A stretch of DNA of 64,000 nt from Spirosoma spitsbergense DSM 19989 (GTDB lineage Bacteria > Bacteroidota > Bacteroidia > Cytophagales > Spirosomataceae). Numbering within the stretch: position 1 is the stretch's first letter; each line of letters begins with the position of its first letter. A program made the position numbers and the translations under genes. Under the pieces are notes generated by a model. That model did not search any database. It worked only from the letters and a program-made list of their open reading frames with translations, and was not told where the DNA came from. Of this stretch, positions 2,959-33,100 are shown piece after piece. The stretch covers positions 14,356-78,355 of the forward strand of contig NZ_KB893603.1 of assembly GCF_000374085.1 (NCBI RefSeq), in the 5' to 3' direction.

Positions 2959-3960
2959 ATGAAAAATAGAACGCTGGGTAACACGGGCGAACAATTATCC
3001 GCTATTGGGCTGGGCTGTATGGGCATGAGCCACGGCTACGGTACGCCCGATGATACGGAAAGCATCGCCACCTTACATAAGGCACTGGACCTGGGTATCA
3101 ATTTCTGGGACACGGCCGATATGTACGCGAATGGTGTCAACGAAGAACTGGTTTCGCGGGTGCTGGTACCTAATCGGGACAAGGTGTTTATTGCCACCAA
3201 GTTCGGGTTCCGGTATCGGGATGATGTTGCGGGAATCGGAGGCATACCGGGTACTTATTTCGATGGCTCGCCCGCCTGGATGAAACAGGCCGTGGAGAAG
3301 AGCCTGAAACGGTTGAAAATCGACACCATCGACCTCTATTACGCCCACCGCATCGATCCAAATGTGCCGGTTGAAGAGATGGTAGGGGCAATTGCTGATC
3401 TGGTTACAGAAGGCAAAGTGCGTTACCTCGGCCTGAGCGAAGCCTCAGCGGCCTCCATTCGTAAAGCGCACGCCGTTCACCCGATTGCCGCCCTGCAAAG
3501 CGAATATTCGTTACTGACCCGCGATGTAGAAAAGGAAATTCTGGGCACCATTCGTGAACTGGGTATTTCGCTGGTGCCATACTCGCCGTTAGCACGGGGG
3601 CTCATCACCAACACGCTCGATGTTACCCAGTTGGATACCAAAGACTTTCGGCGTACCCTGCCCCGCTACAACGACGAGAACCGCGATAATAACCAGTTGC
3701 TGGCGAGCGCGTTTGCCGATCTGGCGGCTGACAAACAGCTAACGGCGGCTCAACTGGCACTGGCCTGGGTACTGGCGCAGGGTGACGACATTATCCCCAT
3801 CCCCGGAACTAAAAAACGGAAATACCTCGAAGAAAACGCGGGAGCTGTCGACGTAATCCTTTCTGAATCAGACAAGGAAGCTATCGAGACCTTACTGGCC
3901 CGTTACCCAAACACAGGTCCGAGGTACAGCGAAGGGGCACTCAAACTGGTGAATCATTGA
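2959..3960 (+). CDS. Aldo/keto reductase
   Basis: The 333-residue protein is an NADPH-dependent aldo/keto reductase of the (beta/alpha)8 type. The catalytic tetrad is intact: Asp51 and Tyr56 in DTADMYANG, Lys81 in ATKFGF and His130 in YYAHRID. The C-terminal [18 protein letters not shown] segment is the usual NADPH phosphate-binding part of the MGMS(H/E) group of AKRs acting on aldehydes. I chose the ATG giving [10 protein letters not shown] because the longer frame would overlap the FMN reductase and adds sequence unlike the family. Its last 60 bp are duplicated in decayed form at 5661-5720 beyond pabC. The physiological substrate is unknown. Confidence 0.9.
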
Positions 3961-8409: not shown

Positions 8410-9431
8410 TTGTCAGCCCAGGCAATCAACTGTTTGGCAGTTTCTGCCGGATTATCTTCCCGAATTTCTATAGGATGAACCAGAGCGGCATCGCGCTGGG
8501 ATAGGCCGTGCAGATACGCTTTGTCGTAATAATCCAGCGTTAAGTCGGCTACGGTAGCGTAATCGTTTCGCGTCAGAGCATCCAGCGCATCTTTCGTTAT
8601 TTTTCCGCCCAGTCGTTTCTGAATCCGTTCCGTGGCATCTACCAGGAGCTGATGGTCGATACCGGCGTATTCATGGACCAAACGCTCTACCCGGCACGAT
8701 TTTGTTACATCGATGAACGCAACCGGCGCGGCCCGCATCTGATGCCAGAGCGGCATTGGAATAAAGCACGAACCGATGCTCCGGCTTTCATCTTCAAGCC
8801 AGATGCGTTTGGTACGGTCGAGCTGACGTAACTGCTGATGCACCAGGTTTTCAAACTGTTCCGTGGCGGGTTGGGCTGCCTGACCGATGGCCCCGTAGGT
8901 CGAGCCTTTATGATTGGCCAGCCCTTCCAGATCAATGATTTGTTCACCCTGCCGGGCCAGTTCTTTCAGGATATCGGTTTTACCGCTACCCGTCTTACCG
9001 CCAAGAATAAGCAGCTTACGTGGCTCCGTAAAGGCTGAAAGCACCGTGTTTCGGTACGCTTTGTAGCCGCCTGCCAGCGTCGATGCCGTGAGTCCGGCGG
9101 TGTCCAGCAACCAGGCAAATGAACTGCTTCGCATACCACCACGCCAGCAGTGAACCAGCACTTCTTTTCCCTGCGGGTTCAGTTTTTTCGACTGCTTTAC
9201 AAAGTTGGCCAGCTTTGGCCCTACCAGAGAAAGCCCAAGTAAAACCGCCGAATCCTTCCCTGCATTTTTATATTTGGTACCCACCAGCGCCCGCTCGTCA
9301 TTGTCGAACAGGGGAATACTGACTGCCCCCGGAATATGTGCATGCTGGTATTCCCCCGGCGACCGGACGTCGATAATGGGTAGGGTTTGGGCTTTGTCTA
9401 AAAACTCCTCAACCGGGTGTTTATGAATCAT
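8382..9431 (-). CDS. mnmH: tRNA 2-selenouridine synthase
   Basis: MnmH (SelU/YbbB) replaces sulfur by selenium at the wobble 2-thiouridine of certain tRNAs, via a geranylated intermediate. The 349-residue protein has an N-terminal rhodanese domain with active Cys95 in [13 protein letters not shown] and a C-terminal P-loop domain with GGKTGSGKT around residue 145. Both halves and the total length match the family. Its ATG overlaps the pdxJ stop as ATGA, so the two are probably translated in tandem. Selenophosphate synthetase (selD) is not in this window, so whether selenium is used cannot be judged. The 3' end overlaps the Uma2 gene. Confidence 0.93.
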
Positions 9432-10147
9432 TGGATGCTCAGGCAGCGTAAATAGAGTTGGATGGTATTTTCCAGACCCAGATAAAGGGCGTCGCTTATT
9501 AGTGCATGGCCAATGGAAACTTCTTCGAGCTGGGGGATCTGTTCAGCAAAGTAACGTAAATTTTCCAGGCTTAAATCGTGGCCGGCATTCAGCCCCAGGC
9601 CGATTTCTGTGGCTCGTTTGGCCGCCCGAACAAAGGGCGCAACGGCCGCTTCCCGGCCCTGGGGATAGTGAGTGGCGTATGGTTCGGTATACAGCTCAAT
9701 TCGGTCTGTACCAACCGCTTTCGCGCCATCGACCATTCGTTCGTCGGCATCCACAAAAATAGAAACGCGGATACCATCGGCTTTAAACGTGTCGATCAGT
9801 TTCCGCAGGTGGTCGGCGTGGCGAATGGTGTCCCAGCCTGCATTAGACGTAATGGCATCGGGCGCATCGGGCACCAGCGTCACTTGCGCAGGCTTTACCT
9901 GCTTCACGAGTTGGATAAACCGGTCGTCGGGATTACCCTCGATATTGAATTCGGTCGTAACGACTTCACTCAGGTCCAGCACGTCCTGATAGCGAATGTG
10001 CCGCTCGTCGGGGCGGGGGTGAACGGTAATGCCCTGCGCACCGAAGCGTTCGCAATCGAGGGCAACCTGTACCAGGTTCGGGTTGTTGCCGCCCCGCGCA
10101 TTCCGGAGGGTCGCAATTTTATTAATGTTAACGCTTAAACGAGTCAT
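9428..10147 (-). CDS. pdxJ: Pyridoxine 5'-phosphate synthase
   Basis: PdxJ condenses 3-amino-2-oxopropyl phosphate with deoxyxylulose 5-phosphate to make pyridoxine 5'-phosphate in the DXP-dependent vitamin B6 pathway. The 239-residue TIM barrel starts [20 protein letters not shown]. It also shows [15 protein letters not shown], the FNIEGNPDD segment, SIFVDAD and [13 protein letters not shown]. The first motif reads [10 protein letters not shown] where E. coli has VNIDHIATLR, which I recall as normal for Bacteroidota. The longer upstream frame was rejected because it runs through an inverted-repeat leader. It is divergent from the yqeY-type gene, and both have similar CTCTTTCG-rich leaders. 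Confidence 0.95.
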
Positions 10148-10154
10148 GTATAGT

Positions 10155-10277
10155 AAAGAGCGAAAGTACGAAAGAGCGAAAGAGTTAATTGGCGCTCTTG
10201 GTTTTGTAACTTTGCAGCAAGAGTGAAGGTTCAGTAGTTTTTTATCGCTCATTCACTCATTCACTCTTTCGTTCTTT
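10155..10277. repeat. Inverted low-complexity repeats between divergent pdxJ and yqeY
   Basis: Arms 10155-10184 and 10246-10277 are imperfect reverse complements (about three quarters identical) made of the unit GAGYGAAW. Each arm lies a few bases before a start codon, pdxJ on the minus strand and yqeY on the plus strand. Both mRNAs therefore begin with a pyrimidine-rich CTCTTTCG-type leader. Confidence 0.8.
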
Positions 10278-10281
10278 AACT

Positions 10282-10731
10282 ATGTCTCTAAAACAACAAA
10301 TCGACGCGGATATAAAGCAGGCCATGCTGGCTAGAGATCAGGATAAATTACGGGCACTCCGGGCCGTAAAATCAATGATCCTGCTGGAAGAAACCAAAGA
10401 AGGGCAAACCGGCGACCTCAAACCCGAGGACGAAACCCGGATTCTGACCAAAGCGGTGAAGCAGCGAAAGGACTCGGCCGATATCTATCGGCAGCAAAAC
10501 CGTCCTGACCTGCTGGCTACGGAAGAAGGAGAGATTTCCGTTATCGAGAAATACCTCCCCCAGCAACTGTCGGAAGAAGAGTTAAAAGAAAAACTACAAG
10601 CCATTATGGCCCGCGTAGGTGCATCGGCTCCCTCCGACATGGGCAAGGTTATGGGGGCTGCAACGAAGGAATTGGCCGGTCAGGCCGATGGGAAAGCCAT
10701 TTCGGCCATGGTGAAGACGTTGTTACAATGA
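10282..10731 (+). CDS. GatB/YqeY domain protein
   Basis: The 149-residue protein is a stand-alone YqeY protein, similar to the tail domain of the GatB subunit of tRNA amidotransferase. It starts MSLKQQIDADIKQAMLARD and contains LRALRAVKSMI, VIEKYLPQQLSEEEL and SDMGKVMGAATKELAGQADG, all family hallmarks. The exact function of YqeY is not settled; tRNA-related roles are inferred from GatB. It lies upstream of a cvpA-type gene and rlmN in one direction. The last codons and stop are part of a 34-bp inverted repeat whose other arm precedes the next start codon. Confidence 0.92.
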   Translation: MSLKQQIDADIKQAMLARDQDKLRALRAVKSMILLEETKEGQTGDLKPEDETRILTKAVKQRKDSADIYRQQNRPDLLATEEGEISVIEKYLPQQLSEEELKEKLQAIMARVGASAPSDMGKVMGAATKELAGQADGKAISAMVKTLLQ

Positions 10732-10802
10732 GCGAATGAGCGAATGAGTGAAAGAGCGAAAAGCTGAATCACTCATTCGCTCATTCGCTCTTTCACTCAT
10801 TG
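10726..10802. repeat. Inverted GAGYGAAW repeat between yqeY and cvpA genes
   Basis: Arms 10726-10759 and 10769-10802 (34 nt each, five mismatches, 9-nt loop) form a long hairpin. The left arm includes the yqeY stop codon; the right arm ends five bases before the TTG start of the next gene. The right arm's sense strand is a G-poor CACTCATTCGCTC-type leader. Confidence 0.88.
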
Positions 10803-10807
10803 TAAAT

Positions 10808-11356
10808 TTGAACACACTCGACTTACTCATGCTGATTCCCCTTGCCTGGGGCGCATTTAACGGCTACCGAAAAGGGCTACTGGTAGAAATCGTGGGCATC
10901 ATTGCGTTTGTGGTGGCCATGATTGTGGGGTTCAAATTTCTGGGGTTTGGTATCGAGCTATTAAGCCCGTATATCAGCCGGGAGGTAGCCCGACGGATCC
11001 TTCCGTGGCTGGGATTCTCCATCATCTTTTTTCCAACGGTAATGATGATCAATCAGTTAGGTTTTTCTATCCGTCGATCACTCAAATACTCGGTGTTAGG
11101 TACGTTCGATAGTGTAGCGGGGGCGGCAGTCGGTGTTTTTACGTGGGTGTTTGGAATTAGTGTCATTCTTTGGCTGTTGAGTTATATGAATGTAAAAATG
11201 CCGCCCCGCCAGGTCGAAACCGCCTTTTTATACCCCTATATTCGGCCCATTGCCCCAAAAGTCATGGATAAAGCTGCGGTATGGGTGCCGAAAGGACTGG
11301 AAGAAGGAAAGAAATGGCGGGCAGAAAATATAATGAGTGAAAGAGCGATAGAGTGA
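10808..11356 (+). CDS. CvpA family membrane protein
   Basis: The 182-residue protein has four predicted membrane segments and the CvpA-type N-terminus LNTLDLLMLIPLAWGAFNGY followed by RKGLLVEIVG. CvpA-family proteins are inner-membrane proteins linked in E. coli to colicin V production and bile resistance; their molecular role is unclear. I start it at TTG 10808, because that gives the family-like (M)NTLDLL start and the upstream extension is only translated inverted repeat. ATG 10829 is an alternative. The final residues SERAIE are encoded by the left arm of the next inverted repeat, so the C-terminus may have been rewritten by repeat insertion. Confidence 0.85.
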   Translation: MNTLDLLMLIPLAWGAFNGYRKGLLVEIVGIIAFVVAMIVGFKFLGFGIELLSPYISREVARRILPWLGFSIIFFPTVMMINQLGFSIRRSLKYSVLGTFDSVAGAAVGVFTWVFGISVILWLLSYMNVKMPPRQVETAFLYPYIRPIAPKVMDKAAVWVPKGLEEGKKWRAENIMSERAIE

Positions 11357-11405
11357 AAGGCCAGTTTTATTCCTAACGCTCTTTCATTCTAACGCTCTTT
11401 CACTC
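11335..11405. repeat. Inverted GAGYGAAW repeat between cvpA and rlmN genes
   Basis: Arms 11335-11359 and 11381-11405 (25 nt, two mismatches) enclose a 21-nt loop. The left arm covers the last codons and stop of the cvpA-type gene; the right arm ends seven bases before the rlmN ATG. Unit sequence matches the arrays at 10.2 and 10.7 kb. Confidence 0.88.
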
Positions 11406-11412
11406 TTTGACC

Positions 11413-12462
11413 ATGAAACAGGATATCCGTAAAACAACACCCGCTCAACTGAAAGACTGGCTGACCCAGCAGGGGGAACAGGGCTTTCGGGCTAAACAGG
11501 TGCATGAATGGCTCTGGAAAAAATCGGCCCGGTCATTTGAGCAAATGACGAACCTGTCGTTGCCCACGCGGGACTTGCTGAATGCTCATTTTGACATTCG
11601 ACCGCTGACGGTTGCTGAAGAACAGCGTAGCAATGACGGCACCATCAAATCATCGTTCCGGCTGTTCGACGGTAATCTGGTAGAAGGCGTGCTGATTCCG
11701 GCACTGCGAAACGATGAACACGGTGACCGTATGACCGCCTGTGTATCGAGTCAGGTGGGTTGCTCGCTGACCTGTAAATTCTGCGCGACGGGTTATATGG
11801 ACCGTAAGCGCAACCTCGATGCCGCCGAAATTTATGATCAGGTAGTGGCCATTGACCGGCAGGCGAAAGAAAACTATGATGCCCCGCTCTCCAACATTGT
11901 ATACATGGGCATGGGGGAGCCGCTGTTAAACTACAAAAACGTGCTCGAATCCGTCGACCGCATCACCTCGCCGGATGGCCTGGGTATGTCGCCGAAGCGA
12001 ATTACGGTTTCTACGGCGGGTATTGCCAAAATGATTCGGCAACTGGGCGATGATGCTGTGAAGTTTAATCTGGCTTTGTCCTTACACGCGGCCAATGACC
12101 AGAAACGCGATCAGATTATGCCCATCAACGAAAGCAATACGCTGGACGTGTTAGGCGATGCGCTGGGGTATTTTTATAAAAAAACCGGTACCCGGATTAC
12201 GTTCGAATACATTCTGTTCTACAACTTCAACGATACGTTGCAGGACGCTCAGGAACTCTGGAAGTTTACAAAACGCGTTCCGGCCAAGATCAATATCATT
12301 GAATACAACCCCATTGCCGAGGCAAATTTTAAAAATACAGATCCCCAGACACTGGATAAGTTTGCTGGATTTCTGGAAAACAAAGGCGTAACGGTTAATG
12401 TACGCCGGAGCCGGGGAAAAGATATCGATGCCGCCTGCGGCCAACTGGCCGGAAAGAAGTAG
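11413..12462 (+). CDS. rlmN: 23S rRNA/tRNA adenine C2-methyltransferase RlmN
   Basis: RlmN is a radical SAM enzyme that methylates C2 of A2503 in 23S rRNA and A37 of some tRNAs. The 349-residue protein has the CxxxCxxC cluster at Cys117, Cys121 and Cys124 (CSLTCKFCATG) and the acceptor Cys at about 342 in DAACGQLAGKK. It also has the typical VYMGMGEPLLNY and LALSLHAAND segments. ATG 11413 fits the family; an in-frame TTG two codons upstream was not used. The leader is a CTCTTTCACTC-rich repeat arm, so expression may be influenced by the hairpin formed with the end of the preceding gene. Confidence 0.96.
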   Translation: MKQDIRKTTPAQLKDWLTQQGEQGFRAKQVHEWLWKKSARSFEQMTNLSLPTRDLLNAHFDIRPLTVAEEQRSNDGTIKSSFRLFDGNLVEGVLIPALRNDEHGDRMTACVSSQVGCSLTCKFCATGYMDRKRNLDAAEIYDQVVAIDRQAKENYDAPLSNIVYMGMGEPLLNYKNVLESVDRITSPDGLGMSPKRITVSTAGIAKMIRQLGDDAVKFNLALSLHAANDQKRDQIMPINESNTLDVLGDALGYFYKKTGTRITFEYILFYNFNDTLQDAQELWKFTKRVPAKINIIEYNPIAEANFKNTDPQTLDKFAGFLENKGVTVNVRRSRGKDIDAACGQLAGKK

Positions 12463-12587
12463 TGCGCCCGGCTGCCTTACGTGTGTTAACAATTTGGTAA
12501 TATGCCTCTGCGCTGTTTGGCGTACTTTTGTAGCAATCATCAGCTTACGGACCCACCGTTTGCTTACTTACAGAAGACAACTTTCTC

Positions 12588-14009
12588 ATGTTTGGATTAG
12601 AAACGGATGTTTTTATCCTTCTCTTCATCAGCCTCTTCGCTGCCTGTGCCTTTGAATTTGTAAATGGTTTTCATGATACAGCGAACGCCGTTGCTACCGT
12701 TATCTACACCAATTCGCTGAAACCAACCGTTGCCGTTGTCTGGTCGGGCATTTGCAATTTTGCGGGGGTTTTGCTGGGCGGTATCGGGGTTGCCATGGGG
12801 ATCGTGAACCTACTGCCGGTCGAGTTACTGGTCGATCAGAATGTATACCATAGCATCGCCATGGTACTGGCCTTGTTGATTAGCGCCATTATCTGGAACC
12901 TGGGGACCTGGTATTTTGGTCTGCCCAGCTCCAGTTCACATACACTGATCGGGTCTATTCTGGGAGTAGGCCTTGCTTTTGCTACAATGCCCGAAAACAC
13001 AACTGGTTCGGCCGTTAACTGGGAAAAAGCCATCGAAACGGGCGAAGCGCTGCTGTTGTCACCCCTGCTGGGTTTTAGCCTGGCCATTATTTTGATGTTT
13101 CTACTTCGTCGGTTCGTGAATGAGGAAACAAAAACTCAACTGTTTAAAGAACCGAAAAAAAACGCTCCCCCGCCACCCTGGATTCGGGCTATATTGGTTA
13201 CAACCTGTTCGCTGGTAAGTTTCTTCCACGGCAGTAATGACGGGCAAAAAGGAGTCGGCTTAATCATGCTTATCCTAATTGGTGTTGTTCCATACCAGTT
13301 TGCTATTAAAACCGATCTGGACCCTAGCCTGTTAGGAACCAATATCAGCGGGATTGAGCAGAGTATTGCTACGCTGGATTCAAACCGGCTTTCGGCGGTT
13401 AACCGAACCCGGTTAATGCAGACTCGAAATGAACTGGCAGGGCTAAGCAAGCTGGTAAATGGTCCTTTGGTCGACAACAAGATTCCAAACGAGGAGCGGC
13501 TGGAAGTTCGTCGTGACCTATTGCTGATTAACAGCAATATGAAAAAAATTGTGGAGGATGAAGGGGCTAACTTAAGTGCGAGCCAGGTGGCCACGCTGAA
13601 CGCAAACCTGGGCGAAGAGAAAGGGTTGCGTCGGTTTACGGATTACGCGCCGTTGTGGGTTATTCTGATGATTGCCCTGTCTTTAGGACTTGGCACCATG
13701 ATTGGCTGGCGTCGGATTGTAGTAACTGTAGGTGAGAAGATTGGTAAGCAACACCTGACGTACGCGCAGGGGGCGTCGGCCGAGCTGGTAGCCGCAGTCA
13801 TGATTGGCGTTGCTTCGGGTTTGAAACTGCCCGTTAGTACTACACACGTGCTCTCATCGGGCATTGCGGGTACCATGGTGGCTAACAAAGGTATCAAAAA
13901 CCTCCAGGCTGATACCGTTCGTAACATTGCCCTCGCCTGGATACTTACACTGCCTGTTTCGCTGCTGTTATCGTTTACGCTCTACATATTCTTTCGCTGG
14001 CTATTGTAA
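12588..14009 (+). CDS. PiT family inorganic phosphate transporter
   Basis: The 473-residue polytopic protein imports phosphate by cation symport. The two family repeats are visible: FEFVNGFHDTANAVATVIYT near residue 24 and the C-terminal LPVSTTHVLSSGIAGTMVA near residue 410, with SSSSHTLIGS and FFHGSNDGQKG in between. About ten membrane segments are likely. Between them lies a hydrophilic insert of roughly 110 residues (about 240-350) predicted to be helical, longer than in E. coli PitA and common in Bacteroidota forms. No PhoU-like gene lies next to it. A TACTTTTG element at 12523-12530 is a possible -7 box, without a well-spaced TTG. Confidence 0.92.
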   Translation: MFGLETDVFILLFISLFAACAFEFVNGFHDTANAVATVIYTNSLKPTVAVVWSGICNFAGVLLGGIGVAMGIVNLLPVELLVDQNVYHSIAMVLALLISAIIWNLGTWYFGLPSSSSHTLIGSILGVGLAFATMPENTTGSAVNWEKAIETGEALLLSPLLGFSLAIILMFLLRRFVNEETKTQLFKEPKKNAPPPPWIRAILVTTCSLVSFFHGSNDGQKGVGLIMLILIGVVPYQFAIKTDLDPSLLGTNISGIEQSIATLDSNRLSAVNRTRLMQTRNELAGLSKLVNGPLVDNKIPNEERLEVRRDLLLINSNMKKIVEDEGANLSASQVATLNANLGEEKGLRRFTDYAPLWVILMIALSLGLGTMIGWRRIVVTVGEKIGKQHLTYAQGASAELVAAVMIGVASGLKLPVSTTHVLSSGIAGTMVANKGIKNLQADTVRNIALAWILTLPVSLLLSFTLYIFFRWLL

Positions 14010-16132: not shown

Positions 16133-17200
16133 ATGAAACTATTAATTACCGGTGGGGCCGGGTTTATCGGGTCGCACGTTGTTCGACTGTTCGTTACCAA
16201 ATACCCTGAATACCAGATTTACAATCTCGATGCATTGACCTACGCCGGAAACCTGGCCAACCTGTCGGACATTGAACACGCGCCAAACTATACGTTTGTG
16301 AAAGGGGATATCACCGACGCGAAATTTCTGGAGGATATGTTTGCCGAACTTTCCTTCGATGGGGTCATCCACCTGGCCGCCGAATCGCACGTTGACCGCT
16401 CCATTACCGATCCCATGTCGTTTGTGATGACCAACGTGGTTGGAACAGTAAACCTGCTCAATACCGCTAAGAATAGCTGGAAGGATGCCGACGGAAAGCC
16501 AGCCTACGAGGGCAAGCGGTTCTACCACGTCTCGACCGATGAGGTGTACGGCTCGCTGCACAATCCGGAAGATTTCTTTACCGAAGAAACGGCCTACGAC
16601 CCGCAGTCTCCTTACTCGGCTTCCAAGGCAGCTTCGGATCATTTTGTTCGGGCCTACGGCAACACCTATAAGTTGCCGGTGGTACTATCCAACTGCTCCA
16701 ACAACTACGGCCCGAATCACTTCCCGGAAAAACTGATTCCGCTAATGATTCATAATATTCAGACCAATAAACCACTGCCCGTGTACGGCAAAGGAGAGAA
16801 CGTACGGGATTGGCTGTATGTTGTCGACCATGCCCGTGCTATCGATGCCGTTTTCCATACCGGCAAACTGGGCGAAACATACAACATAGGTGGTTTCAAT
16901 GAATGGAAAAACCTTGACCTGGTACACCTGCTGTGCCAGATTATGGATCGAAAACTGAATCGGGAAGAAGGCACCTCGGCCAAATTAATTACCTACGTAA
17001 CGGATCGTGCCGGGCACGACCTTCGGTACGCCATTGATGCCCATAAAATTATGAATGAACTGGGTTGGCAGCCATCGCTTCAGTTTGAAGAAGGCCTCGA
17101 AAAAACGGTTGACTGGTTCCTGGCCAATCAAACCTGGCTCGATAACGTCACATCAGGTGCCTATCAGGGCTATTATCAGGACATGTACGCAAATAGATAA
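16133..17200 (+). CDS. rfbB: dTDP-glucose 4,6-dehydratase
   Basis: RfbB/RmlB converts dTDP-glucose to dTDP-4-keto-6-deoxyglucose, the second step toward dTDP-rhamnose and related sugars. The 355-residue enzyme has TGGAGFIGSH at 6-15, the catalytic Thr135-Asp136-Glu137 in VSTDEVYGSL, and Tyr161/Lys165 in YSASKAASDH. It also has SNNYGPNHFPEKLIP and RDWLYVVDHARA. All catalytic residues are present. The ATG follows galE by 58 bp, and rfbA follows after an inverted repeat. rfbC and rfbD are not in this window. Confidence 0.95.
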   Translation: MKLLITGGAGFIGSHVVRLFVTKYPEYQIYNLDALTYAGNLANLSDIEHAPNYTFVKGDITDAKFLEDMFAELSFDGVIHLAAESHVDRSITDPMSFVMTNVVGTVNLLNTAKNSWKDADGKPAYEGKRFYHVSTDEVYGSLHNPEDFFTEETAYDPQSPYSASKAASDHFVRAYGNTYKLPVVLSNCSNNYGPNHFPEKLIPLMIHNIQTNKPLPVYGKGENVRDWLYVVDHARAIDAVFHTGKLGETYNIGGFNEWKNLDLVHLLCQIMDRKLNREEGTSAKLITYVTDRAGHDLRYAIDAHKIMNELGWQPSLQFEEGLEKTVDWFLANQTWLDNVTSGAYQGYYQDMYANR

Positions 17201-17204
17201 TTGT

Positions 17205-17259
17205 GAATGGGCGAATGAGTGACTATTTACCGCACACTCATTCATTCATTTACTCATTC
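17205..17259. repeat. Inverted GAATGAGTG repeat between rfbB and rfbA
   Basis: Arms 17213-17221 and 17235-17243 pair perfectly over 9 bp. The right side continues as CATTCATTTACTCATTC up to seven bases before the rfbA ATG, and the left side begins four bases after the rfbB stop. Same unit family as the 10-11 kb repeats. Confidence 0.75.
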
Positions 17260-17266
17260 AGAAACT

Positions 17267-22184: not shown

Positions 22185-22193
22185 TGAATAATG

Positions 22194-22290
22194 GATAATG
22201 TACGATGAACAATGGGTGGCTTTCGAATCGCCATTGTTCATTGCACATTATCCCGCACGGGCGGCCCCGATTACCCATTCTACATTATCC
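22194..22290. repeat. Inverted repeat with a third copy before the TPM gene start
   Basis: Arms 22194-22215 and 22231-22252 (22 nt, two mismatches) form a hairpin right after the lemA stop. A further direct partial copy of the right arm, ending ACATTATCCT, lies at 22272-22290 and abuts the ATG at 22292. It shares the design of the other gap palindromes but has its own unit sequence. Confidence 0.82.
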
Positions 22291-30100: not shown

Positions 30101-33100
30101 ATGATGAAAAATCTACGAAGTTGTGGTGTCTATGCTGTCTTTGTATTGACATTACTCATGTCCTCATTTGTGGTGCAGGCCCAAAACCCTGTCTCAGTCA
30201 AGCAGGCGGCTAAAGCGGCCAAAATATCACCTGACCTGTATCGGGTGATGCAGAACAACGGGCCACTGCCGATCGTATCGACTAACGGAGGGACGGTGGA
30301 GACAAACCAGGTTTTTGTTGGTGACAAGATAGCTATCGAGGCCGTTGCTAATAATGATGACGGGGAGGGGCTGCTCAACCAGCTAAAAGCATTGGGTTTA
30401 ACTGATGGGGTAGCCTACAAGAGGAAGATATTTGGTTACCTGCCTATCGATAAACTGGGGGAACTAAAAAATGTATCGTCCCTGAGTTTCGCCGATTCCT
30501 TTTATAAACCCGAAACAAACACGGGTTCGGTAACGTCGCAGGGCGATGCAGCGCTGAAAGCTGACATAGCCCGCACCACCTATGGGGTTACGGGAGCCGG
30601 CGTTAAAGTAGGTATTCTCTCTGATTCGTATAATCGTCTGGGTGGACAAGCTGCCGGGATTACTACGAATGACCTACCCGCTGCCGGTGTGCAGGTATTA
30701 GAGGAATACACAGGTACCGGGCCAACTGATGAAGGGCGGGCGATGGCCGAAATTGTTTATGACGTAGCCCCTGGAGCCGCTTTGGCTTTCAACACGGCTT
30801 TTACCGGGGAAGCCGGATTTGCGCAGGGTATTATCAACCTGGCCACGACGGCTGGCTGTCAGATTATTGTTGATGATGTAGGGTACCTGAATGCGCCGAT
30901 GTTTCAGGATGGGCTTGTTGCGCAGGCTGTTAATCAGGTAGTAAACAATAATGGCGTAACTTATTTTTCGGCAGCTGCCAATCAGGCAAGGTCTTCTTAT
31001 CAGGCGGCTTACAAAAGCGGAGCATCAATCAACATCCCTGCCTATGATCCCGGTACCTATCCCACTCATGATTTTGGGACGGGTGATAGTTACCAGCAAA
31101 TAACGATTCCGGCAGGTGGTAGGATTCGCCTTGCTTTTCAATGGGATAACCCCTATCAATCAGTCAGTGGTGGAACAGGAGCAACCACCGACCTGGATAT
31201 CCTGATTCTTAATAGTACAAACACGACAATACTTGCCTCTAGTGCCAGAGATCAAAGTGCTGGCGGTGATCCGTGGGAAATTACGGGTACCTACACCAAT
31301 ACAACCGGTGCTCCGCTTAATGTTAATGTTGTTATTGTCAAGTATGCAGGACCTGATCCGGGCCTGGTTAAATGGGTGAACTACGGTAGCCGTACCATCG
31401 TCCCCGAGTACGATACCAAGAGCAGCACCTCGTTTGGCCATGCTAACGCAGCTGGGGCCATTGGCGTGGGAGCATCCGCGTACTTCGATACGCCTGTTTT
31501 CAATAGCGCAGCTACTGCCACTATCGAGGGTTTTTCGTCGGCGGGTGGTACGCCCATCCTGTTCAACACCAATGGTACGCGTATCAATGGCATTATTGGT
31601 ACAGTGCGCCAAAAGCCAGAAATTACCTCCGTTGATGGTGGTGATAACACGTTTTTTGGGAGCGATTACGAACCAAATGGTAAACCAAACTTTTTTGGTA
31701 CGTCAGCTGCTGCACCCCATGCCGCGGCAGTGGCGGCTCTGATGAAGCAAAAAGTACCGGCTATTACCCGCAACACCATTTTATCGACACTACAGTCGAC
31801 AGCCCTGGACATGGATGATCCGTCCACGGTGGGTTTCGATACGGGCTTTGACTTTGGCACCGGCTTCGGCTTCATTCAGGCCGACCGCGCCTTACTGGCC
31901 ATTTCGCCTACCTCGCTGTCCCTGGTTGTTTCAGCCAATCCGACTACGATTCTGACGACGGGCACCACCACCCTGTCGGCCACGGTATCGGGCGGCACTA
32001 CCCCCTACAGCTATACCTTTTCGGGACCGGGTACCATTACGCCCTCGGGTAACACGGCCAGTGTGTCCAACCTGCCGGCCGGGGTACAATCTTTCACGGT
32101 GCTGGCCCGGGATGCCACTTCGCCCACCAGCCAGAGTATTTCGGGTACGGTCAGCGTGACGGTGAACATGGCCCCACCCGCCAACACGCCCCCCACGGTG
32201 GCTAACCCGGTCTCGCCCCAGTCGGCTACGGTGGGTGTGGCCTACACGCTTTCCTTAGCTAACGTCTTCACCGATGCCGAGACGCCCTCCAGTCTGACGC
32301 TGTCGGTTTCGGGTCTACCAGCGGGACTGAGTTTCTCGGCTCCTTCCACTATCTCGGGTACGCCTTCGATGTCGGGGGTGAGCAGTATAACGGTGGTAGC
32401 CACCGATCCGGGTAGTCTGAGTGCCAGCACCAGCTTCACCATCACCGTCAGCCCCGCCCCACCCGCCAACACGCCCCCCACGGTGGCCAACCCGGTCTCG
32501 CCCCAGTCGGCTACGGTCGGCGTGGCCTACACGCTGTCTTTGGCTAACGTCTTCACCGATGCCGAGACGCCCTCCAGTCTGACACTGTCGGTTTCGGGCC
32601 TGCCCGCGGGACTGAGTTTTACGGCTCCTTCGACCATCTCGGGTACGCCTTCTATGTCGGGGGTGAGCAGTGTGACGGTGGTCGCCACCGACCCGGGTAG
32701 TCTGAGTGCCAGCACCAGCTTCACCCTGACGGTGAGTCCGGCGGCCGGTACGCCACCGCCGACGGGTGTCTTCAGCATCACCAGCGTGACCACGATCAGT
32801 TGCCAGGTGCTCTCGGCGGGTCAGCGCCGGGTAAGTTTCACTCCGCAGTACGCCGGTCTGGATGGCAGCCCGGTGAGCTTCTCGGTGGTCAGTGAGCTGT
32901 TACCCACCACCAGTCCTGGCCCTTACAGTCTGGATCTGTACACCGACAACCCGGTCATTACCCTGCAGGCGGTGCAGAGCGGGGCACCCAGCAGCTTTGC
33001 CTACAACTGGCTGACGGCCTGTAGCTCCTCGACGGGCAACACGCCCCCTACGGTGGCTAACCCGGTTTCTCCTCAGTCGGCCACGGTGGGCCTGGGCTAC

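Follow-up and report, generated by a model that had tools for sequence, protein, structure and literature searches.

The window analyzed here, a 64-kb stretch of the Spirosoma spitsbergense genome, contains the gene order pdxJ (divergent), yqeY, a cvpA-type gene and rlmN, as established by gene calls and Pfam matches. pdxJ is located on the reverse strand (9428–10147; PdxJ, 1.2e-94), and yqeY (10282–10731; YqeY, 1.2e-46), the cvpA-type gene (10808–11356; Colicin_V, 5.9e-23) and rlmN (11413–12462; RlmN_N, 2e-14, and Radical_SAM, 3.1e-10) follow on the forward strand. The original prediction, made from the letters of the window, had claimed that the three gaps between these genes carry inverted arrays of the 8-bp unit GAGYGAAW, and such arrays were found in all of them. 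The gaps at 10155–10277, 10726–10802, and 11335–11405 hold 4, 7, and 3 exact units (GAGYGAAW or its complement), respectively, which is 14 of the 23 units of the whole window. In 1000 dinucleotide shuffles, the mean unit counts were 0.05, 0.06, and 0.03 in the same gap order, with maxima of 2, 1, and 1, so that the 14 units are clearly enriched over shuffled sequence (means of 0.03–0.06 per gap).

In the divergent gap, the left arm (10155–10189, purine strand on the forward strand) faces the start codon of pdxJ and is kept in the closest relative, L097, while the right arm (10243–10277), found by inverted-repeat search, ends 4 nt before the yqeY ATG. The search paired 10163–10194 with 10246–10277 over 32 nt at 81%. 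Between the arms lies a promoter-like TTTGTAACTTTGC (10203–10215, forward strand); TAnnTTTG is the −7 box of Bacteroidota. All 34 orthologous gaps examined contain its TAACTTTG part, each time in the same orientation, and an invertible promoter was therefore rejected. The arms of the yqeY–cvpA element (10723–10759 and 10769–10805, forward strand, inverted-repeat search) are 86% complementary over 37 nt. Here, the yqeY stop codon TGA (10729–10731) is part of the left arm, and the cvpA start codon TTG at 10808 lies 5 nt after 10802 and 2 nt after the longest arm; its position is taken by ATG in L101, L106, and L116 and by GTG in L107. The third element (11332–11359 and 11381–11408, forward strand, inverted-repeat search) has arms of 28 nt with 89% complementarity. 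Its left arm overlaps the end of cvpA, whose last codons thus lie inside an arm as anticipated, and its right arm ends 4 nt before the rlmN ATG. The RNA folds of the yqeY–cvpA, cvpA–rlmN, and pdxJ–yqeY elements reach −48.1, −40.2, and −44.6 kcal/mol (z = −9.5, −9.6, and −4.8, respectively). A known structured RNA family was rejected, as the 10 Rfam matches at E up to 1 within 9000–13000 were all below the gathering score and all belonged to miRNA-precursor models.

A fourth, degenerate copy is found at about 17195–17262 on the forward strand before a gene starting ATGAAAGGGATTATATTGGCC, and is also present in the closest relative searched (G044). Elsewhere in the window, 22193–22253 forms a palindrome whose arms, GGATAATGTACGATGAACAATGG, are similar to the 7-bp ATGNNYA arms that several other species carry between pdxJ and yqeY. 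At 1–759 and 32171–32725 there are long tandem repeats (279 and 285 bp), which are probably repeated domains of large proteins.

In the complete genome, the tandem unit GAGYGAAWGAGYGAAW occurs 139 times (67 + 72), with zero matches for the reversed control. The elements consist of two inverted arms of (AAWGAGYG)nAAW, mostly with 2–4 units, around a loop, and 3+3 (43) and 2+2 units (36) are the commonest forms among 207 pooled two-armed elements. In this genome, the majority of the 56 clusters are about 45–125 bp long, and the loops measure 10–62 nt (median 26.5, n = 50). Of 162 codirectional elements, 143 stop at one and the same unit phase (CTC, then [AT]TT) at one end and 140 at the other, and no conserved tag was found beyond the outermost unit at either end. 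An inner loop core, GCTGACGC/GCGTCAGC, is found in 25 of the 207 elements at about twenty times the background density. The core GCTGACGC...GCGTCAGC is also common to palindromes with unrelated arms (L044 at about 3007–3025, L130 at 13652, L094 at 4164). Short stretches are shared by 58 of 1225 loop pairs of the genome, compared to 4.9 in shuffles; no pair is similar over its whole length, the best score being 14.5.

The tandem unit was detected in all 36 genomes of the genus that were searched, with 4 to 418 matches and a median of 62, and the arms are accordingly present in close relatives. Among 14 genomes of other families of the same order, one had 4 matches. The paired form was found in at least 115 stretches of named genomes, mostly from Spirosoma, and among the matches listed also from Larkinella, Fibrisoma, Rudanella, Arsenicibacter, Dyadobacter, and Pontibacter. 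Flavobacterium, Chitinophagaceae, Saprospiraceae, Cytophagales, Anaerolineae, and Thermoflexus contributed one or two records each among the matches listed, and some of these titles outside the main carriers may be binning errors. One such record, Flavobacterium sp. SUN052 contig17 (L161), has its element at a gene pair shared with the Spirosoma loci L152 and L218, which would be either horizontal transfer or contamination. Long palindromes of any sequence, scoring 16 or more, occur in 22 of 94 gaps of the genus genomes and in 0 of 38 gaps of a small outgroup sample (11 loci).

The elements are mainly located between codirectional genes, where they reach from the stop codon to a few nucleotides before the next start, and in divergent gaps one arm lies before each start. 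With genes called by a simple custom script rather than a standard gene caller, the 56 clusters of the genome were assigned to 45 codirectional, 4 divergent, and 1 convergent gap, with 6 unplaced, and the 50 distinct two-armed elements to 43, 2, and 1, with 4 unplaced. Gaps of 40–150 nt without an element comprise 87 codirectional, 8 divergent, and 16 convergent ones; convergent placement is thus depleted (1 of 46 placed elements vs 16 of 111 element-free gaps, p = 0.024). In 40 loci, 34 from other genomes of the genus and 6 from the genome itself, two-armed tandem arrays occupy 51 of 326 codirectional, 13 of 117 divergent, and 0 of 84 convergent gaps, counts that are not independent since the genus loci are largely orthologous. 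The purine (left) array precedes the right array in 64 of 64 cases, and 4 matches fall within 620 kb of coding sequence. Of the pooled 207 elements, 12 were called convergent (1 from this genome, 11 from named genomes), some with doubtful neighbors. The last unit ends 7–10 nt before the start in 87 of 174 rows, 12 of which are convergent elements counted in, and the first unit takes one of a few registers around the stop, with a TGA within or between units used as the stop in some. Palindromes of any sequence are frequent in convergent gaps (49 of 70, vs 133 of 300 codirectional and 21 of 98 divergent), and the depletion there concerns the GAGYGAAW family. In convergent gaps of L101, L104, L114, L119, and L122, palindromes with GTAG or GTAA beside CGTGG-type arms were observed, which resemble classical REPs.

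Sixteen orthologous gaps, each seen in at least 8 loci, were surveyed across species. The family occupies the gap before sdhA (presumably sdhC–sdhA) in 12 of 12 loci, yqeY–cvpA in 25 of 33, pdxJ–yqeY in 20 of 34, and cvpA–rlmN in 19 of 31. Two other gaps are occupied in 5 of 18 and 2 of 21 loci, and the family is absent from the ten further ones. A test for palindromes of any sequence was passed in 10 of 12, 28 of 33, 20 of 34, and 15 of 31 loci of the same four gaps. With regard to gene pairs, 17 of the 46 pairs of the genome also have an element in some other genome, and, among the matches listed, 20 of 105 named elements occupy a gene pair that carries one in this genome. The element between accB and accC (biotin carrier and biotin carboxylase) is shared by Larkinella, Rudanella, and Spirosoma, and that between nuoC and nuoD was found in three Spirosoma genomes. 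In the gap after sdhA (presumably sdhA–sdhB), an any-sequence palindrome passes in 9 of 12 loci, and the arm languages vary by species (GTTATAAR-like, GGTTTACGG, AAGTCG, and others; e.g., L114 at 17180, L117 at 16142, L118 at 16175, L103 at 3013, and L125 at 4409).

The letters of these palindromes, by contrast, turn over quickly. The sisters L110 and L108 have about 97% identical proteins, and L110 carries a GAG-type palindrome between yqeY and cvpA where L108 has an unrelated TACGGACT palindrome. The unrelated palindrome TACGGACTTTAGTCCGTA replaces the GAG family in this gap at 10027–10124 of L106 and 10686–10782 of L108. Overall, 36 comparisons between close species were scored, and in 16 of them the palindrome had been replaced, with the cross score at or below 12. 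In some species the spacer has nearly gone, with 11–17 nt in L107, 14 nt in L130, 2 nt in L100, and an overlap in L127. Family-free cvpA–rlmN gaps of about 300 to over 1000 nt are found in L106, L108, and L110. Related species often retain a palindrome in a given gap while its letters turn over or give way to others.

The arms of a gap were further compared with arms swapped between species. For pdxJ–yqeY, split at the promoter, own arms beat swapped arms in 478 species pairs and lost in 62, with 21 ties; for yqeY–cvpA and cvpA–rlmN, where the swap also chose its split, own arms were better at 410:52 (3 ties) and 347:24 (7 ties). Whole-gap shuffles with a re-optimized split were beaten in 29 of 34, 30 of 31, and 22 of 28 gaps. 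These three-gap comparisons comprise the 34, 31, and 28 gaps that remained after dropping those outside 60–220 nt, with approximate borders for the cvpA gaps, no cvpA row for L102, and no pdxJ and yqeY for L120.

For close pairs, which overlap in species except for six, own arms in codirectional and convergent gaps were better in 24 cases, worse in 2, and tied in 6 when the split was re-optimized for the swap; in the six non-overlapping sister pairs the result was 13 better, 0 worse, and 4 ties. The corresponding divergent gaps gave 0 better, 2 worse, and 2 ties, and 2 ties in the six sister pairs. An earlier scoring with 25 better, 0 worse, and 7 ties (divergent: 1, 2, and 1) favored the own arms because the split was fitted to them. 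When the swap was free to align anywhere, also through both arms, the ratios were 14:10 in codirectional, 4:4 in convergent, and 0:3 in divergent gaps (1 tie). Within the genome, own arms scored 19.2 and swapped arms 15.8, a modest difference to which arm length may contribute and which none of 10000 permutations reached; the own arm was the best partner in 4 of 49 elements. Of the 207 elements, 84 have a rare 10-mer mirrored in both arms, compared to a mean of 27.8 and at most 41 under permutation, and outside the family sisters show multi-base blocks altered in both arms (L108/L110 at 6350; L118 and L119).

Such mirrored multi-base changes are those expected of template switching at quasipalindromes, whereas the Y register and the freely aligned swap argue that copying would be imperfect. 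In register, the letter at Y in one arm is unrelated to that in the other, and W is matched about as well when the arms are shifted out of register, so that any copying between arms would fall well short of exact. For W, covariation from arm to arm in the strict sense was rejected: odds ratios of 8–32 were obtained, but similar ones out of register, and the agreement reflects A-type and T-type elements. On the mRNA strand, no excess of G.U over A.C was found (U.G 67 vs C.A 82; G.U vs A.C 40:29 and 46:49), and wobble selection at the RNA level was rejected on these grounds. The mutual fit of the two arms, which mostly endures in codirectional and convergent gaps, is thus probably kept at the DNA level by template switching.

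Taken together, we favor a family of palindromic intergenic elements whose symmetry is maintained by copying at the DNA level and which persists through tolerance near starts, at a probability of about 0.47 and hence just short of even odds. The palindrome would extrude a hairpin during replication, template switching would copy one arm onto the other, and slippage would add or remove 8-bp units, so that the letters would drift while palindromy lasts. Their persistence beside starts would be a matter of tolerance: the transcript may fold the spacer out and bring stop and start close together, and the start-side arm of the family, holding little G, would suit initiation without Shine-Dalgarno pairing. 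That the elements are anchored before starts, and that a few species have a near-absent gap, suggests that the spacer is tolerated as it folds out and keeps the start side accessible.

A leader type used for translation without Shine-Dalgarno sequences had been one of two roles offered in the original prediction, and it fared only in part. The anchoring before starts fits such a role, as does the depletion in convergent gaps, but the generalization to a G-poor start-side arm was not borne out. For any palindrome next to a start, the start-side arm was the G-poor one at 31:7 in the orthology-replicated genus set, but the ratio of 11:6 in independent gaps of the genome was not significant (p = 0.33), and a general rule was rejected. 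Because the rule failed there, a leader role can only be inferred. Positions −10 to −2 of 347 leaders that have neither palindrome nor units contain 0.157 G and 0.276 C. Translation in Bacteroidota is reported to start without Shine-Dalgarno pairing (PMC6847099, PMC9976891), and the leaders of the genus are likewise low in G near the start; the available portions of these papers mention no array or palindrome of this kind.

The same arrangement might instead reflect an intercistronic RNA hairpin under selection, which would protect or process the operon mRNA, or couple translation via stop–start proximity and be melted by the terminating ribosome. The stable folds of the three elements are in line with it, as are elements that fill the space from stop to start between neighbors encoding one complex (before sdhA, nuoC–nuoD, accB–accC), the loss of palindrome and gap together in the four species with minimal spacers, and the replacement of palindromes by other palindromes. 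However, the sense strand lacks the G.U excess, the long cvpA–rlmN gaps do without the family, and in the divergent gap the promoter-like TAACTTTG between the arms would place them in separate transcripts. We therefore regard RNA-level selection as rather unlikely. Template switching alone leaves the replaced palindromes in 16 of 36 close comparisons unexplained. The favored reading is also weakened by the divergent gaps of the close pairs, by the mere 15 of 31 cvpA–rlmN loci that pass the palindrome test, by the long family-free gaps at that junction, and by the G-poor rule not being general. At certain operon junctions, selection might keep any palindrome, whatever its letters, with the fold-out restoring stop–start proximity for coupled, Shine-Dalgarno-free translation and template switching supplying the matched arms, although we judge this unlikely.

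The second role offered was a spreading palindromic element. A dispersed palindromic family is indeed present, but recent spreading was not seen, since the same gaps are occupied across species and no loops are alike. A mobile MITE- or REP-like selfish element, inserted beside stop or start codons and decayed into many variants, is accordingly quite unlikely in our estimate, even if the occurrence in several genera, the fixed end phase, the inner core, and the short stretches shared by loops would suit it. Neither a clear target duplication, nor a clean empty-site pair among the close strains compared, nor near-identical loops were found. The Y1/REP transposase family (PF01797) was undetected in 7 of 36 repeat-carrying genomes, which have 8–172 repeat matches and one of which is just 82% complete, and the correlation of transposase and repeat is 0.29 (p = 0.085); a dependence on Y1/RAYT was thus rejected. 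MITEs are short inverted-repeat elements without own genes, which also describes the Spirosoma elements. However, no clear target duplication or autonomous partner was found for the latter, and their positions are shared between species.

REP elements are described in the available text of PMC3733652 as 20–40 bp long with a GTAG- or CGTC-tagged end, the GTAG ones being linked to RAYT transposases. Both they and the Spirosoma family are small intergenic palindromes with many copies per genome, but the Spirosoma arms are tandem 8-bp units with ends AAWGAG...CTCWTT instead of a GTAG/CGTC tag, most clusters are longer (about 45–125 bp), and in some carriers no Y1 family member was detected. The terms Spirosoma, Cytophag-, and Dyadobacter are absent from the main text of that paper.

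If the arrays were operators, with a DNA-binding protein recognizing GAGYGAAW in the duplex and the positions marking its regulon, this would explain why the degenerate Y need not match between arms and why certain genes are preceded at fixed positions. Such a role is highly improbable in view of sister species that swap the arms for unrelated palindromes and of the 21 downstream proteins scanned in the genome (among them GMP synthase, GalU, GltX, RecR, RlmN, and a response regulator; 2 without a family), which show no common functional theme. Intrinsic transcription terminators, suggested by strong hairpins in gaps, were rejected as extremely improbable, given the depletion in convergent gaps (12 of 207 even in the pooled set) and sites inside operons such as nuoC–nuoD.

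For the preferred reading of symmetry kept by DNA-level copying, the closest known process is template switching, in which reverse-complement copying creates or repairs palindromes and gives multi-base mirrored changes (PMC8794818, PMC7202029, in their available portions). While quasipalindrome template switching is a process of mutation, its proposed target here is an entire family with repeat-unit arms at certain operon gaps. None of four typical 15-letter stretches of the GAGYGAAW repeat was found in the open-access library searched, and the listed titles and abstract openings on Spirosoma or Dyadobacter repeats and Bacteroidetes palindromic repeats do not describe it.

Palindrome spacers are an unusual kind of spacer. 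If selection did keep any palindrome at certain operon junctions, such gap-erasing palindromes would be a structure that is inherited while its sequence is freely replaced. The matched gaps over dozens of species form a natural set in which palindromy often lasts and sequence does not. This set makes it testable how bacterial genomes keep palindromes symmetrical, and whether Bacteroidota link neighboring genes through folded spacers.
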